NCBI RefSeq assembly: GCF_025999835.1
Contig: NZ_AP025628.1
Location: forward strand, 1,674,001 to 1,738,000
Source: Caldinitratiruptor microaerophilus
Lineage (GTDB): Bacteria; Bacillota; Sulfobacillia; Symbiobacteriales; ZC4RG38
Direction of reading: 5' to 3'
Length of the DNA: 64,000 bases
The position numbers and the translations under genes are program-made. The notes beneath the pieces were generated by a model. The model did not search any database and was not told the origin of the DNA. It worked only from the letters and a program-made list of their open reading frames with translations. Numbering within the stretch: the stretch's first letter is position 1; every line of letters begins with the position of its first letter. Shown in pieces: positions 1-25,454 of the stretch.

Positions 1-1604
1 AAGCTTCGGTAGGTGACCCGACAAGGCCCGAATTTTTTGGTTCGTTATGCACTCCGCGGCAGCGCCCTCACAAGCTCACGTAGCACGTACTTGACCCACG
101 GCGAGCCGGCAGCTGGTCCGCTGAGCGCCGGCAGGTTCACCCGCAGCCATGCCTCCGGATCATTCAGTTCCCCGGGCTGCACCCGAATCGCCGTCGAGCC
201 GGTTGCCTGGCGCAACACCTCCGACTGCATCGGCCAGGCCTGCCGCCCCATCACCGCCAATTCCCCGTTCGCCCGGGCCGCCAGCAGCCGCACCAGATGG
301 TCCGCTCCCCTGTCACTCCACTGCGCTCCATGGCGCTTCATCCGTCGGGCGACATGGTGGAACACCTGCCCCTCAATGGTGCCCAAACTGTCTGCGGCCC
401 CGGAACGGCAGATGCCGTCCCAGTTCTCCTGCAGGTACTTCCGCAGCCCTGCCACACGCTTGCGCTGCGCCCCACGACTGGCCCGCTCGGCCGTCGCCAG
501 CACCTGCTCCACCTGGCTCCAGTCCTTGACCTTCAGGGCCTCCACCGCCTTCCGGTAGGCCTCCTCGTCATGCGACAGACCCTCCAGCAGCGCCCGGCGG
601 AGGTGGAACGGGTCCAGCTGGTACCTCGCTCCGGCAAACGTCCCCGCCCACTGCTTCACCCACGGGGCACCGTCGCCGCCCACCACCACGTCCTGTACCG
701 CACTCAGATCCCACTTGCTGCCGAAATCCGCATACGTCTGCTCCGAGAAGACCTCCGCACTGGCCAAGCCTGCGGTCACCCGGCGCTCTACCAGTTGCCA
801 CCGGTTTTGCCCGACTTGCTCTTTGCCCTCATAGCCGACCGCCAGCTTCAGCCCCAGGTGCCTGTGGGCTCCCCGGGGACCACGGCCTTGGACCACCACC
901 TCGTCCACCTCAATCCGCAACCGCTCGGTCCGCCGCTGCCCCGCCGGCACCTCGCCACGGTCGAACACTGCACGGCGCTGCGCTTCGGCTTGCTCCACCC
1001 GTACAGCGCCCACCTCCTGGACCTCACGCCAGACGCTCATCGCTCGGACATCCATGCCCCCCAGCGTGAGCTTCGCCAGCACCGCCGCCGCCCGGTGGTA
1101 CGGCATCTCCGCGGCCATCGCCACCGCCAGTTCTGTGGCCCACGGCGACAGCCGCTGGCGGGCTGTCCACCCCAGCGCCTCGTCCAGCAGGAAATGGCCT
1201 TCCCCGCTCTGACGGTCCCGGTAGTACCGCCGCCGCACCTGCACCTTCCCAAACGGCGTCACGATCGTCCGCGGCTTGCTGTGCACCAACTCATATCGCG
1301 CCGCGTCCCGCCGGCGCATCAGCTCGTCGTCCAGCCGGTGCAACGCCAGCACCAGCGCCCGTCGCGCCACCTCCTGCACCAGCCGGAAGATCCCCTTCTC
1401 CAGTTCCATGAAGTCGTGGCGGGTCCGCAGCAACTCCGAGATCCCATGCACCAGCAGCAGGATTAGGTCCATGATCTCACGAACTAGCCACATCGAGACC
1501 TCACCCATTACCAGGCCTTGTCGGGATGGTTGCTACCGCAACCTACCAGGTGAGGTCTCATTCTTTGTTGTCCCCACCATCTCCTCCCGAAATGTTATCC
1601 GGCC
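1..1604 (-). mobile_element. ISLre2-family insertion sequence, copy A (left 9 bp off the window)
   Basis: This copy matches the element at 12224-13833 base for base apart from three substitutions that I found (260, 529 and 1560) and a 3-bp insertion near 1583. The window starts 9 bp inside the element, judging from copy B. The right end reads CCGAAATGTTATCCGGCC at 1587-1604. Its reverse complement matches the left end seen in copy B at 12 of 18 positions, so it is an imperfect terminal inverted repeat. The expected 9-bp target duplication would be AACTGTCGC at 1605-1613, but its partner lies outside the window. The only gene is the transposase. Confidence 0.9.
45..1508 (-). CDS. ISLre2 family (UPF0236) transposase, copy A
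   Basis: Full-length 487-residue transposase that moves its element by DDE chemistry. It is recognised by overall similarity to the ISLre2/UPF0236 family. The N-terminal third contains the family-typical KVQVRRRYYRD region. Candidate acidic residues are in EVDEVVVQGRG (about 200-210), VGGDGAPWV (about 276-284), LDPFHL (about 298-303) and TIEGQVFHH (about 383-391). The reading frame is intact, so the copy may be active. It differs from copy B at one residue seen by eye, Val in place of Ala in EALKVKDW, caused by the base at 529. It lies antisense to the neighbouring plus-strand reading frames, which are shadows. Confidence 0.93.
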   Translation of the reverse strand: MGEVSMWLVREIMDLILLLVHGISELLRTRHDFMELEKGIFRLVQEVARRALVLALHRLDDELMRRRDAARYELVHSKPRTIVTPFGKVQVRRRYYRDRQSGEGHFLLDEALGWTARQRLSPWATELAVAMAAEMPYHRAAAVLAKLTLGGMDVRAMSVWREVQEVGAVRVEQAEAQRRAVFDRGEVPAGQRRTERLRIEVDEVVVQGRGPRGAHRHLGLKLAVGYEGKEQVGQNRWQLVERRVTAGLASAEVFSEQTYADFGSKWDLSAVQDVVVGGDGAPWVKQWAGTFAGARYQLDPFHLRRALLEGLSHDEEAYRKAVEALKVKDWSQVEQVLATAERASRGAQRKRVAGLRKYLQENWDGICRSGAADSLGTIEGQVFHHVARRMKRHGAQWSDRGADHLVRLLAARANGELAVMGRQAWPMQSEVLRQATGSTAIRVQPGELNDPEAWLRVNLPALSGPAAGSPWVKYVLRELVRALPRSA

Positions 1605-5401: not shown

Positions 5402-5410
5402 AAGATCGCT

Positions 5411-5524
5411 CGGGCGCCGACCTACTCTCCCGGGGGCTAGGGCCCCCAGTACCCTCGGCCCTGGCGGGCTTAACGACCGGGTTCGGAATGGAGCCGGGTG
5501 TGGCCCCGCCGGTATGGGCACCCG
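5411..5524 (-). rRNA. rrf: 5S ribosomal RNA
   Basis: The minus strand carries the conserved 5S regions, including CCGAACCCGG and GGGAGAGTAGGTCGGCGCC at the 3' end. The two ends, CGGGTGCCC and GGCGCCCG, pair as helix I and set the boundaries. It is the last gene of the rRNA operon, with a 61-bp spacer after 23S and no tRNA. Confidence 0.93.
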
Positions 5525-5585
5525 AATTCGTGCACAGAGGCGTTGGGTCTGCGACCCAGGTGGAACCGCACGCCGCCTTTGGCCG

Positions 5586-10326
<4,741 letters not shown>

Positions 10327-10515: not shown

Positions 10516-10567
10516 CCGGTAATTGTTGCTATGCCGTGATCGACGCCCTGCTCTCTGGCGAGTGTTG

Positions 10568-10596
10568 ATTATAGCAGCGCCCCTGGCCGGTGTCAA
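10568..10596 (-). promoter_or_regulatory. rrn promoter P1 (perfect sigma-A consensus)
   Basis: The minus strand carries TTGACA (10591-10596), a 17-base spacer and TATAAT (10568-10573), both hexamers exact. Nothing native remains upstream beyond 7 bp: the 9-bp target duplication of the ISLre2 element starts at 10604 and the IS4-like element at 10614. Any original UP element has been moved more than 3 kb away. Confidence 0.85.
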
Positions 10597-10603
10597 CGTG
10601 GCC

Positions 10604-10612
10604 CGCTTCCCG
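10604..10612. repeat. target-site duplication of ISLre2 copy B, left copy
   Basis: CGCTTCCCG here is identical to 13834-13842, which directly abuts the right end of ISLre2 copy B. The two halves are separated by the ISLre2 plus the IS4-like element that later inserted at its left junction. The preceding GGCC also matches, by chance or because it resembles the element end. Confidence 0.8.
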
Positions 10613-10613
10613 G
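10605..10613. repeat. target-site duplication of the IS4-like element, left copy
   Basis: GCTTCCCGG here is identical to 12216-12224, so the element at 10614-12215 is flanked by a perfect 9-bp direct repeat. Its last base is the first base of the ISLre2 element it interrupted. Confidence 0.88.
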
Positions 10614-12215
10614 CAGGAGCTACGCAACTCCTCCTGCTGTGCCGCACCGCAGTGACAATTCGCGGCCTTTCCCTTGAGCGGCAAAATTCGCGGTCCGGAA
10701 GGAATTTGTTGGTAAGGCGCGAAGAAGAATCCCGGCCCACCCATCCTCTCCCAAACGGGTGGCCGGGGAGGTCGAGAATGAAACTGCTCAAGCAGTTCCT
10801 TCGCTACGTCTCCAACACGTTCCTGCTCCCCCAGCACCTCCGGCGCGTTCACGCCCGCCGCCATCCCACCCGGGTTCAGATCCCCACCGACTCCGCCCTT
10901 TTGGCCTGGATCCTCGGTTTCGCCGCCCGCGTTCACAGCCGCGAGGAACTCGGCCGCCTCCTCGACCGTCGTTCCCTCCACCGCCTCACCCGCCGCCACA
11001 TCAGCGCCGACTCCCTCGCCCGGATCGCCGCTCAGCTCGACCGCGACTGCCTTCGCGCCCAACTTCTCGTCCCGCTCATTCGCCGCATGCGCCGCAACAA
11101 ACTCTGGTCCCCCGGCTCCATCGGCCCCTTCGTCATGGTCGCCATCGACGGCACCGAACCCATCCGCTCGGACCACCGCCACTGTACCCACTGTGCCACC
11201 CGCACCCGAGCCGACGGCCAGGTCGAGTACTACCACCGCGTCGTCGTCGCCTCTACCGTCGGCACCCACCCCCGCATCCTCCTCGACCTGGAACCCGTCC
11301 TTCCGGGCGAGTCCGAAGTGGCCGCGGCCAGTCGCCTGCTCGAACGGCTTGCCAACACCTTTCCCTGGCTCCATGTCTTCCTCCTCGACGCCGGCTTCGC
11401 CAACGGACCCTTCCTGGCCCAGATCCACCGGTTTGGCCGCGGCTTCATCGTCCGGGTCAAAGACCACGAGCGCCGCCACCTGCTCCGCGACGCCCAGGCC
11501 CTGGCCGCCCGCTCCCAAGCCGACCGGTGGGAGGCCGCCTGGGGCCACCACCGCCTCCGCGTCCATGCCTGGGATGAGGACGGGTTCACTTCGTGGGATT
11601 CCTACCCTGGTACCCTCCGGGTCTTGATCGTGGACGAGGAGGAACTCCCCGAACCCGCCACCCGCCGTCGACGCATGCCCTCCCCCGGCAGGCTCTGCCC
11701 CCGGGCCTTCTACGTCACCAACCTCTCCCCGGGGCAGCTCCCTACCCGGGCTCTGTGGGAAGCGGCTCATCACCGCTGGAACCTGGAAAACACCGGCTTT
11801 CATCAGCTCAAGCACGAGTTCCACTGGAACCATGCCTTCGCCCACCAGAGTCCCGGGGCACTCTTCAACACCTGGCTGCTCCTGGCGGTGGCCTTCAACC
11901 TCTTCCTCACCTTCGTCTACCGCCGGCTTCGTGCAGGCAGGCAGGGCAACAAGCCGCTTCGCTGGCTCGCCCAGGAACTGTATGCCGCCCTACGGGTCGC
12001 GCCTGCTGAGCAACTGCCTTACCTGGCCGCCGGCTGACGGCATCCGCGCACGAACGGGTGGGGAGACGCAGGAACGAAGTGCAACATCCATCTACTGGCA
12101 GCAACAGAGCCCTCGCTCTGTACGTTCTCCTTTTCACTCTCTTCCCCGGTCCCCACGCAGACCTGCTCCAACCCACCTTTTCGGCCTCTCAGAAACCGGA
12201 GTTGCGTAACTCCTG
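10614..12215 (+). mobile_element. IS4-like insertion sequence, 1602 bp
   Basis: Terminal inverted repeats of 18 bp, CAGGAGCTACGCAACTCC at 10614-10631 and its near-perfect inverse (one mismatch) at 12198-12215, flank a single transposase gene. A perfect 9-bp target duplication surrounds the element. The target lay across the junction between the rrn upstream region and the left end of ISLre2 copy B, so this insertion is the younger of the two. Confidence 0.9.
10778..12037 (+). CDS. IS4-like DDE transposase
   Basis: A 419-residue transposase. The catalytic triad is expected at the Asp of VAIDGTEPI (about 130), the Asp of FLLDAGFANG (about 205) and the Glu of RWNLENTGFHQLK (about 335), which resembles the Y-R-E-K signature of IS4 relatives. 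A basic N-terminus (MKLLKQFLRYV) probably contributes to DNA binding. The ATG at 10778 has GGGGAGG upstream; the frame stays open further upstream but without similarity. The gene fills most of the element, looks intact and reads away from the rrn operon. The exact IS subgroup is not certain. Confidence 0.87.
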   Translation: MKLLKQFLRYVSNTFLLPQHLRRVHARRHPTRVQIPTDSALLAWILGFAARVHSREELGRLLDRRSLHRLTRRHISADSLARIAAQLDRDCLRAQLLVPLIRRMRRNKLWSPGSIGPFVMVAIDGTEPIRSDHRHCTHCATRTRADGQVEYYHRVVVASTVGTHPRILLDLEPVLPGESEVAAASRLLERLANTFPWLHVFLLDAGFANGPFLAQIHRFGRGFIVRVKDHERRHLLRDAQALAARSQADRWEAAWGHHRLRVHAWDEDGFTSWDSYPGTLRVLIVDEEELPEPATRRRRMPSPGRLCPRAFYVTNLSPGQLPTRALWEAAHHRWNLENTGFHQLKHEFHWNHAFAHQSPGALFNTWLLLAVAFNLFLTFVYRRLRAGRQGNKPLRWLAQELYAALRVAPAEQLPYLAAG

Positions 12216-12224: not shown

Positions 12225-13833
12225 GCCGTGTCAAGCTTCGGTAGGTGACCCGACAAGGCCCGAATTTTTTGGTTCGTTATGCACTCCGCGGCAGCGCCCT
12301 CACAAGCTCACGTAGCACGTACTTGACCCACGGCGAGCCGGCAGCTGGTCCGCTGAGCGCCGGCAGGTTCACCCGCAGCCATGCCTCCGGATCATTCAGT
12401 TCCCCGGGCTGCACCCGAATCGCCGTCGAGCCGGTTGCCTGGCGCAACACCTCCGACTGCATCGGCCAGGCCTGCCGCCCCATCACCGCCAGTTCCCCGT
12501 TCGCCCGGGCCGCCAGCAGCCGCACCAGATGGTCCGCTCCCCTGTCACTCCACTGCGCTCCATGGCGCTTCATCCGTCGGGCGACATGGTGGAACACCTG
12601 CCCCTCAATGGTGCCCAAACTGTCTGCGGCCCCGGAACGGCAGATGCCGTCCCAGTTCTCCTGCAGGTACTTCCGCAGCCCTGCCACACGCTTGCGCTGC
12701 GCCCCACGACTGGCCCGCTCGGCCGTCGCCAGCACCTGCTCCACCTGGCTCCAGTCCTTGGCCTTCAGGGCCTCCACCGCCTTCCGGTAGGCCTCCTCGT
12801 CATGCGACAGACCCTCCAGCAGCGCCCGGCGGAGGTGGAACGGGTCCAGCTGGTACCTCGCTCCGGCAAACGTCCCCGCCCACTGCTTCACCCACGGGGC
12901 ACCGTCGCCGCCCACCACCACGTCCTGTACCGCACTCAGATCCCACTTGCTGCCGAAATCCGCATACGTCTGCTCCGAGAAGACCTCCGCACTGGCCAAG
13001 CCTGCGGTCACCCGGCGCTCTACCAGTTGCCACCGGTTTTGCCCGACTTGCTCTTTGCCCTCATAGCCGACCGCCAGCTTCAGCCCCAGGTGCCTGTGGG
13101 CTCCCCGGGGACCACGGCCTTGGACCACCACCTCGTCCACCTCAATCCGCAACCGCTCGGTCCGCCGCTGCCCCGCCGGCACCTCGCCACGGTCGAACAC
13201 TGCACGGCGCTGCGCTTCGGCTTGCTCCACCCGTACAGCGCCCACCTCCTGGACCTCACGCCAGACGCTCATCGCTCGGACATCCATGCCCCCCAGCGTG
13301 AGCTTCGCCAGCACCGCCGCCGCCCGGTGGTACGGCATCTCCGCGGCCATCGCCACCGCCAGTTCTGTGGCCCACGGCGACAGCCGCTGGCGGGCTGTCC
13401 ACCCCAGCGCCTCGTCCAGCAGGAAATGGCCTTCCCCGCTCTGACGGTCCCGGTAGTACCGCCGCCGCACCTGCACCTTCCCAAACGGCGTCACGATCGT
13501 CCGCGGCTTGCTGTGCACCAACTCATATCGCGCCGCGTCCCGCCGGCGCATCAGCTCGTCGTCCAGCCGGTGCAACGCCAGCACCAGCGCCCGTCGCGCC
13601 ACCTCCTGCACCAGCCGGAAGATCCCCTTCTCCAGTTCCATGAAGTCGTGGCGGGTCCGCAGCAACTCCGAGATCCCATGCACCAGCAGCAGGATTAGGT
13701 CCATGATCTCACGAACTAGCCACATCGAGACCTCACCCATTACCAGGCCTTGTCGGGATGGTTGCTACCGCAACCTACCAGGTGAGGTCTCGTTCTTTGT
13801 TGTCCCCACCATCTCCCGAAATGTTATCCGGCC
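12224..13833 (-). mobile_element. ISLre2-family insertion sequence, copy B (complete, 1610 bp)
   Basis: The element runs from GGCCGTGTCAAGCTTCGG at its left to CCGAAATGTTATCCGGCC at its right. These ends form an 18-bp imperfect inverted repeat (12 matches) beginning with GGCC. The right flank CGCTTCCCG (13834-13842) pairs with 10604-10612, giving the 9-bp duplication known for this family. The left partner is displaced because the IS4-like element inserted at the junction. It is almost identical to copy A, so both are recent arrivals. Confidence 0.92.
12277..13740 (-). CDS. ISLre2 family (UPF0236) transposase, copy B
   Basis: An intact 487-residue transposase, identical to copy A except for Ala in EALKAKDW where copy A has Val. 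The same acidic-residue-bearing blocks are present (VGGDGAPWV, LDPFHL, TIEGQVFHH). The coding frame starts 93 bp inside the right end of the element and stops 53 bp before its left end. It reads toward the IS4-like element and the rrn operon. Transcription from this gene could in principle run on towards the rrn promoters in the same direction. Confidence 0.93.
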   Translation of the reverse strand: MGEVSMWLVREIMDLILLLVHGISELLRTRHDFMELEKGIFRLVQEVARRALVLALHRLDDELMRRRDAARYELVHSKPRTIVTPFGKVQVRRRYYRDRQSGEGHFLLDEALGWTARQRLSPWATELAVAMAAEMPYHRAAAVLAKLTLGGMDVRAMSVWREVQEVGAVRVEQAEAQRRAVFDRGEVPAGQRRTERLRIEVDEVVVQGRGPRGAHRHLGLKLAVGYEGKEQVGQNRWQLVERRVTAGLASAEVFSEQTYADFGSKWDLSAVQDVVVGGDGAPWVKQWAGTFAGARYQLDPFHLRRALLEGLSHDEEAYRKAVEALKAKDWSQVEQVLATAERASRGAQRKRVAGLRKYLQENWDGICRSGAADSLGTIEGQVFHHVARRMKRHGAQWSDRGADHLVRLLAARANGELAVMGRQAWPMQSEVLRQATGSTAIRVQPGELNDPEAWLRVNLPALSGPAAGSPWVKYVLRELVRALPRSA

Positions 13834-23254: not shown

Positions 23255-23641
23255 TCACGGGCCGAAGGCCCCCGGGATCCACGTCACGCGCCAGCCGCCC
23301 CGCCCGTCGGGGGCGACCTCGGTCACGTCGAACCGGCACGGCCGGTCCGGACGGGGATGGTCGCGGAGGAAGGCGGCGGCCAGACGGCGGAGGCGCATCT
23401 GCTTCGCCGGACCCACCGCCTCGGCGCCGGTGCCGAACCGCGCGGACCTGCGGGTCTTCACCTCCACGAACACGAGCGCCGGCCCGTCCTCGAGGACCAG
23501 GTCGATTTCCCCCAGCCGGCAACGCCAGTTGCGCGCGACGAGGGACAGCCCCTGCGCCAGGAGGTGCGCGAGCGCGGCCTCCTCGCCGGCGCGCGCGACT
23601 GCCCCGGTCTGGCGCTTCGCCCCCGGCCGTGGCTCAGGCAT
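23255..23641 (-). CDS. yraN: YraN family protein (UPF0102)
   Basis: A 128-residue protein with the endonuclease-like fold of UPF0102. The core [28 protein letters not shown], with the D, E-x-K arrangement of the PD-(D/E)XK fold, is clear at about residues 34-62. Its cellular role is not established. It overlaps the end of rnhB by 8 bp, the common arrangement in Firmicutes, and ends the long minus-strand block. Confidence 0.9.
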
Positions 23642-24452
23642 CCCCGTGCGGCGGCCGGGCCGGGGCGGCGGACAGCGCTTCCCGCGGCTGCCCGAGACGG
23701 CGGTGGATCGGACACGGGCCGTACTTCTCCAGCGCCGCGCGGTGCTCGGCCGTCCCGTATCCCTTGTGATGGGCGAACCCGTACTGCGGGTAGAGCCTGT
23801 CCATCTCCATCATGTACCGGTCCCGGGTCACCTTGGCGACGACGGCGGCGGCGGCGACCGAGGCCGAGGCGCCCTCCCCTCCGGCGACCAGCGTCTGAGG
23901 CGGGCCGGGGTGGGGCAGGTGCAGGGAGGCCAGCAGGAGGTGGTCCGGAGGGACGGTGAGGCCCCGGACCGCCCTGGACATGGCCTCGTAGGTGGCGAGG
24001 AGGACGCTCGTCTCGTCGATCCCCGCGGGGTCGGCCATGCCGACCCCGACGGAGACGGCCACCCGGCGGATCTCGTCGTAGAGCGCCTCCCGGCGGCGCT
24101 CGGTCAGGCGGCGGATGTTCTCGAGCCCGGGGAGGAACACTTCGCCGGGGAGCACCACGGCCGCCGCGACCACCGGCCCGGCGAGTGGCCCCCGCCCCAC
24201 CTCGTCCACGCCCGCGACGTAGCGTGCACCCTGACTCCACAGCCGCCGCTCGTGCGCGTACATCCGGGTCAGCAGGGACTTCTGCCGCTCCCACTCCTCC
24301 AGCCGCTCGCGACAGTACCGCACGAGCCGCTGCGCCCCGCCCCGGGGATCCCCCGCCAGCGCGGCGATGACCTCGGGGTAGCTTTCCGGTCCCCTCGCCT
24401 GCACGTACTGGTGGAGCTGGCGCAGGCTCATCTTGCGAAGGCTCACCCGCAC
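23634..24452 (-). CDS. rnhB: ribonuclease HII-like protein with altered active site
   Basis: A 272-residue RNase HII homologue with the usual N-terminal extension. RNase HII nicks DNA at single ribonucleotides. [13 protein letters not shown] (83-95) is intact, giving the first two acidic residues, and the C-terminal KVTRDR and GYGTAEH blocks are conserved. However, the block LLVDA of known enzymes reads LLLAS here (Ala175 for the catalytic Asp). IKGDAKS reads VAGGEGAS (190-196), so the last Asp is at best a Glu. DSKKL reads NIRRL (112-116). The start GTG follows GGGGGG. Position between rbgA and yraN is normal. Activity is doubtful. Confidence 0.85.
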
Positions 24453-24563: not shown

Positions 24564-25454
24564 TCAAAATCCTCCCGGCCCCGAGCAGCCGTCGGGACCG
24601 GGGAGCGGCTCGGGCGGCTGCTCCAGCGTCAGCCGGCCGAGGCGGCCCTCGCGGAGCTCGCGCAGGATCAGGGCCGCGGCCCGGTCCGCGTCCGGAAGGC
24701 CGCCGGGACGGAGGAGCCCCCGGAAGCGGGCCACCTGCGCGAGCGCGGCCTCCGGATCGGCCGGCGGACCCTCCAGCCCGAACCGCTCCCGGACCGCTCC
24801 AGGAGCCAGCGCCTGCAGGTCGGGCAGGAGCGCGGCGGCCACCCGGGGGATGTCCACCACCTCCTCGCGCACGATCCCCAGGGCGACCAGGAGGTACCCC
24901 GTCCTGGGGTCCACGAAGCGCGGCACGAGGATGCCGGGCACGTCGAGGAGTTCGAGGTCGCCGACCCGGACCCACTGGAGGCCCCGCGTGACCCCGGGCT
25001 TCTCGCCCACACGGGCTCGCCGGCCGCCGGCCATGCGGTTGAGCAGCGACGACTTGCCCACGTTGGGCATCCCGACCACCATCACCCGCGCCGGGCGGGG
25101 CAGCCGCCCGCGCGCGCCGAGGGAGGCGACCACCGGCTCGTAGAGGCGGCGGACCTCCACCAGCACCTCCCGGACCCCCGTGCCCCGCGCGGCGTCCACC
25201 GCCACGGCCGTCAGCCCCTGCGCCGACAGGTGGCGGAGCCAGGCGCCGGTGGCGGCCGGGTCGGCCAGATCCGCGTGCGCCAGCGCGACCACCCGCGGCC
25301 TTCGCCCCGCGAGCTGCGCCAGGTCCGGGTTCGCGCTGGCCGCCGGCGCCCGCGCGTCCCGCACCTCCACCACCACGTCGACCAGGCGCAGGGCCTCCGC
25401 AACCTGCCGCCGCGCCCGGACCATGTGTCCGGGGAACCAGGAGATGCTGCCCAC
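24564..25454 (-). CDS. rbgA: ribosome biogenesis GTPase RbgA/YlqF, degenerate G4 motif
   Basis: A 296-residue circularly permuted GTPase that helps assemble the large ribosomal subunit. WFPGHM at the N-terminus is the family signature. Motif order is permuted: G4, then G1 (GMPNVGKSS, 128-136), then G3 (DVPGI). The G4 motif, normally NKAD, reads AHAD at 59-62, so the Asn and Lys that recognise guanine and support the P-loop are missing while the Asp is kept. The C-terminal ANTAR-like region is present, with a disordered end (PGPDGCSGPGGF). It lies between lepB and rnhB as usual. Confidence 0.88.
   Translation of the reverse strand: MGSISWFPGHMVRARRQVAEALRLVDVVVEVRDARAPAASANPDLAQLAGRRPRVVALAHADLADPAATGAWLRHLSAQGLTAVAVDAARGTGVREVLVEVRRLYEPVVASLGARGRLPRPARVMVVGMPNVGKSSLLNRMAGGRRARVGEKPGVTRGLQWVRVGDLELLDVPGILVPRFVDPRTGYLLVALGIVREEVVDIPRVAAALLPDLQALAPGAVRERFGLEGPPADPEAALAQVARFRGLLRPGGLPDADRAAALILRELREGRLGRLTLEQPPEPLPGPDGCSGPGGF

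Follow-up and report, generated by a model that had tools for sequence, protein, structure and literature searches.

The catalytic mechanism of RNase HII has been described for the Thermotoga maritima RNase H2, in which D18, E19 and D107 hold metal ion B and K47 of the DSK motif touches the scissile phosphate (PMC3025331). The D107N mutant of this enzyme is inactive, yet its crystals show it bound to a single-ribonucleotide duplex; archaeal mutants at the equivalent position are also inactive, and mutants of homologues at the position of D124 lose part of their activity (PMC3025331). For yeast RNase H2A, however, mutants equivalent to D107 and D124 are described as retaining cleavage at RNA-DNA junctions (Jeong et al., 2004, as summarised in PMC3025331). 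Structures of bacterial RNase HII are available from T. maritima (3o3f and 3o3g), Staphylococcus aureus (5y9p) and Escherichia coli, the last in complex with RNA polymerase (7uwe). Two RNase HII genes were present in only one of 220 bacterial species surveyed in 2007 (Kochiwa et al., 2007; PMC1950709). A natural inactive homologue that sits beside active RNases H is known in the Bacillus subtilis-type inactive RNase HI (Group A; PMC1950709), although this is a type 1 RNase H and belongs to another gene family. In the open-access literature we found no paper on inactive paralogues of RNase HII and none on the enzyme in Symbiobacterium.

The locus considered here lies within a window of 64,000 nucleotides from the genome of the hot-spring bacterium Caldinitratiruptor microaerophilus (order Symbiobacteriales), a single contig of 3,599,694 bp. 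It carries the ribosomal-operon copy of rnhB, hereafter the window copy, whose features are collected in Table 1. As had been stated in the original prediction, the frame is intact, encoding 272 amino acids from a GTG start. The product passes the cut-offs of both the Pfam RNase_HII model (PF01351, 104.6 bits against 25.8) and the NCBIfam model for ribonuclease HII (NF000594, 257.8 bits against 243), and assignment to RNase HIII (RnhC) was rejected at 22.8 bits against a cut-off of 161.2 (TIGR00716). The AlphaFold2 model has a mean pLDDT of 91.8 and superimposes on T. maritima RNase H2 (3o3f) with a Z score of 25.5 and an rmsd of 2.0 over 193 residues, so that the RNase HII fold, for which this superposition had been suggested as a check, is beyond doubt. 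Matches to 5y9p (Z 28.1) and 3o3g (Z 25.8) are similar, with rmsd values ranging from 2.0 to 2.9. The gene lies between neighbours that we take, from sequence knowledge, to be ylqF/rbgA-type and yraN-type genes, the start of the latter overlapping the rnhB stop by 8 bases. By tblastn, the order ylqF-rnhB-yraN is conserved in all eight genomes of the order, as are lepB, rplS and trmD wherever the contig reaches, and orthology of the window copy is assigned by this position. An N-terminal helical extension is kept in 8/8 ribosomal-operon copies and is absent from the canonical paralogues discussed below.

Table 1. Features of the window copy of rnhB and its neighbours (positions within the window; Tm, T. 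maritima RNase H2).
Feature	Position	Strand	Basis
Divergent RNase HII paralogue (window copy)	23634..24452	-	PF01351, NF000594, AlphaFold2 model, structure alignment
N-terminal helical extension, residues 1-73	24234..24452	-	Alignment; predicted helices 10-31, 38-64, 66-73
Presumed ylqF/rbgA-type GTPase gene, upstream neighbour	24564..25454	-	tblastn synteny
Presumed yraN-type gene, downstream neighbour	23255..23641	-	ORF list, synteny
D83-E84, first two catalytic carboxylates (Tm D18, E19), intact	24201..24206	-	Alignments
GRG 2'-OH-sensing motif, G86-R87-G88, intact	24189..24197	-	Alignments
N112-I113-R114, replacing the DSK motif (Tm D45-S46-K47)	24111..24119	-	Alignment
A175, codon GCC, replacing the metal-B aspartate (Tm D107)	23928..23930	-	Alignments, codon
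E193, codon GAG, replacing the fourth carboxylate (Tm D124), conservative change	23874..23876	-	Alignments, codon
Y232, junction-sensing tyrosine (Tm Y163), intact	23757..23759	-	Alignments

With residue equivalences taken from alignment to the T. maritima enzyme, the window copy shares with the bacterial RNases HII of known structure the fold, the GRG motif, the junction tyrosine and the D18/E19 equivalents, as well as its gene position in a ribosomal cluster and, with S. aureus, N-terminal helices. Unlike them, it carries Ala at the position of the metal-B Asp, N-I-R at the DSK motif, a fourth Asp exchanged for Glu and HRRLG in place of HRRSF, and it coexists with a canonical copy. The original prediction, that DEVGRG is intact while LLVDA has become LLLAS and DSKKL has become NIRRL, agrees with the alignments on all three motifs. 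A single-base substitution (GAC to GCC) is enough for D175A, and in NIRRL the Lys that contacts the scissile phosphate is replaced by Arg. A carboxylate had also been taken as lost from KGDAKS; this motif is indeed altered, but the residue in question is changed from Asp to Glu and is still acidic. The DEDD set therefore reads D83, E84, A175 and E193, with three of the four acidic positions filled rather than two, and the earlier count of lost carboxylates was one too high. It had been proposed that the idea of a disabled site would fall if an alignment showed nearby residues supplying the missing acids, and here the outcome is divided. The fourth carboxylate is present, whereas no substitute near A175 was seen in the sequence or the alignment. 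As the orthologues share the only acid nearby (D170), and E193 sits where the fourth carboxylate normally is, nothing has obviously taken the place of D175.

A search of the genome for a second rnhB or an rnhC, also suggested at the outset, located a second rnhB (G000:C1:2140914-2141450) with every active-site motif present (DSKRL, LLVDG, GGDRK and HRRSF); an rnhC gene was not found in this genome. An RNase HI gene is also present, and the possibility that the window copy is the sole RNase HII of its host is ruled out by the canonical copy, which makes a loss of activity in the window copy affordable. Both copies occur in seven of the eight genomes of the order, the second copy of one of them (G006) being represented by two partial matches. 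In the eighth (G007) a single RNase HII was detected, but this assembly is 77% complete and its canonical copy may simply be missing from it. Among 149 genomes sampled evenly across the phylum, none besides C. microaerophilus has two RNase HII copies, the other 148 having one or none. One contig scan, composed mostly of Clostridia with no recognisable genome of the order, was used for the base rate and the structure alignment only. In the tree, the ribosomal-operon copies group together (support 100/100), as do the canonical copies (100/96), and the two clades are sisters (97/83). This suggests that the two copies arose by duplication rather than by a horizontal origin of the canonical copy, although long branches could mislead. 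The flanks of the canonical copy are not conserved between C. microaerophilus and the other genera.

The changes at the active site fall into two layers. Across the order, the DSK serine is replaced in 8/8 ribosomal-operon copies (by I, H, H, C, V, A, V and A), as is the Phe of HRRSF, while the canonical copies of the same order keep both. The replacements at the DSK serine and at F254 show no new consensus, a pattern more in keeping with relaxed constraint than with a shared new function. With the extension in one copy and the canonical motifs in the other, the pair looks like complementary loss after duplication. The metal-B aspartate, on the other hand, is kept in 7/8 ribosomal-operon copies and was lost only in C. 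microaerophilus. D112N is likewise confined to this species, whereas D193E is shared with the G003 orthologue. Since the DED core is intact in all seven orthologues (with Glu at the fourth position in one of them), the ribosomal-operon family may still cut, with C. microaerophilus alone differing. The least changed of the ribosomal-operon copies is that of G007 (L043 / L024), with DDVKRL, LLIDA, GGDGQS and HRKSY.

How unusual these changes are can be gauged from 144 RNase HII proteins outside the order, comprising 104 in a first alignment and 40 further Bacillota proteins drawn across the phylum with the lowest-scoring ones included. Asp occupies position 175 in 104/104 and 40/40 of these, and judged against them the loss of D175 exceeds chance. 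The DSK serine is kept in 143/144 (103/104 and 40/40). Position 193 is Asp in 104/104 and 39/40, the remaining protein (L177, from genome G160) having Glu as its fourth acid in the motif KGEDKS. No second RNase HII was found in G160, and with Glu also present in the G003 orthologue, the D193E change is evidently tolerated.

The window copy is not a visibly decaying gene and shows no excess of sequence change. Its identity to the G001 orthologue (0.694) is slightly above that of the canonical rnhB (0.676) and exceeds those of ylqF (0.638), yraN (0.565) and lepB (0.522). The branch leading to C. microaerophilus in the tree is 0.46 for the window copy and 0.50 for the canonical copy. In a three-way comparison, changes on its own lineage and on the G001 lineage number 34:10 for the window copy and 27:9 for the canonical copy, and the C. 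microaerophilus lineage is therefore fast for both copies alike. Of 45 sites that all seven orthologues keep and that are conserved in 90% or more of the family, only D175 is changed, which indicates a change aimed at the active site and not one spread across the protein. Since this lineage split from that of G001, a fully neutral phase would have occupied no more than some 5-8% of it, a rough figure to be read as an order of magnitude because the synonymous distance is near saturation. The earlier argument against simple decay is thus supported by rates and conserved sites alike, but neither would yet reveal a loss of function that is very recent.

Taken together, we somewhat favor a reading in which the window copy goes back to an old RNase HII duplication specific to the order, has a relaxed active site and has become, in C. 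microaerophilus, a probable pseudoenzyme that keeps its junction-binding residues. The copy in the trmD-rplS-lepB-ylqF-rnhB-yraN cluster would occupy the ancestral place, and the short copy elsewhere would have kept all active-site motifs, presumably still excising ribonucleotides and removing primers in the ordinary way. The ribosomal-operon copy would have retained the N-terminal helical extension, the fold and the residues that read the junction (GRG and Tyr) while its mobile DSK loop and some active-site neighbors drifted order-wide. The aspartate that holds metal ion B would then have been lost in C. microaerophilus alone. The T. maritima D107N mutant, which lacks the same catalytic position, offers the nearest analogy, although it is a laboratory mutant with Asn, whereas the window copy is natural, has Ala and is also changed in DSK. 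By this analogy the window copy should bind an RNA-DNA junction but hold metal B poorly, and on that account would cut slowly or not at all. We infer that it no longer cuts efficiently and was probably retained for binding RNA-DNA junctions or a protein partner. The suggestion made originally, that cleavage was lost and binding kept, fits the behavior of D107N together with the retained GRG motif and junction Tyr. Guesses at what it binds include RNA-DNA junctions, RNA polymerase (as for E. coli in 7uwe) and the canonical copy. A stronger version holds that selection has kept a natural non-cutting RNase HII, either to read or shield RNA-DNA junctions or to partner RNA polymerase or the canonical RNase HII; an order-wide division of labor, with extension and binding in one copy and catalysis in the other, would here have reached its end point. 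This we regard as a tentative possibility.

Other explanations have to be weighed against that of a binding pseudoenzyme. Recent non-functionalization, in which activity has just been lost in C. microaerophilus, perhaps in the sequenced strain alone, a pseudogene is beginning and the intact frame and high identity reflect inertia, is encouraged by the good canonical paralogue, by the two or three active-site positions altered in this species only (D175A and D112N, with D193E also in G003) and by the lack of a new consensus in the order-wide DSK serine and F254 changes. That only 1/45 conserved sites is changed, that any neutral phase is approximately as short as estimated above and that changes are in no excess over the canonical copy nevertheless leave it doubtful. 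It is less probable again, and in our view unlikely, that the window copy still cuts, perhaps slowly, with Mn2+ or only at junctions, by means of D83, E84 and E193. Three acidic positions do remain, Glu occurs at the fourth in the Bacillota genome G160, where a second RNase HII was not found, and the seven orthologues lacking the DSK serine still keep the metal-B aspartate. A changed or residual activity is a real rival because the yeast RNase H2A mutants kept junction cleavage, so that some activity could survive without D175 (Jeong et al., 2004, as cited in PMC3025331). Against this, D107N of the close bacterial homologue and its archaeal equivalents are inactive (PMC3025331), the Lys touching the scissile phosphate is replaced as well and the sequence near 175 offers no acid except the orthologue-shared D170.

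That the key codons were wrongly sequenced or assembled is highly improbable. Several separate active-site positions are changed, the DSK loop is changed in all seven orthologues too and the frame is intact, while PacBio errors are mostly indels. Nonetheless, D175A needs a single base, and PacBio reads were the only data behind the assembly of the C. microaerophilus JCM16183 genome (PMC9933637).

A genome nearly always carries RNase HII in a single copy, and the metal-B aspartate is invariant in all comparisons made here except in the window copy. A stable double set in which one copy is losing catalysis offers a natural test of the roles of RNase HII besides cutting, and also of the idea that redundant RNases H are not inherited together (PMC1950709). 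It carries a warning as well: annotation pipelines would label the window copy a functional 'ribonuclease HII', considering that it passes the NCBIfam cut-off.

Elsewhere in the window, a complete 16S-23S-5S rRNA operon was identified with Rfam at 5409-10326 (-), with a spurious ORF at 7484-8323 inside the 23S gene. Two near-identical ORFs of 487 amino acids, at 45-1508 (-) and 12277-13740 (-), flank this operon on either side; from sequence knowledge we take them, and a third ORF at 10523-12037 (+), to be transposase-like. Together, the rRNA operon and these ORFs are the probable reason why the first 16 kb of the window are lower in G+C.
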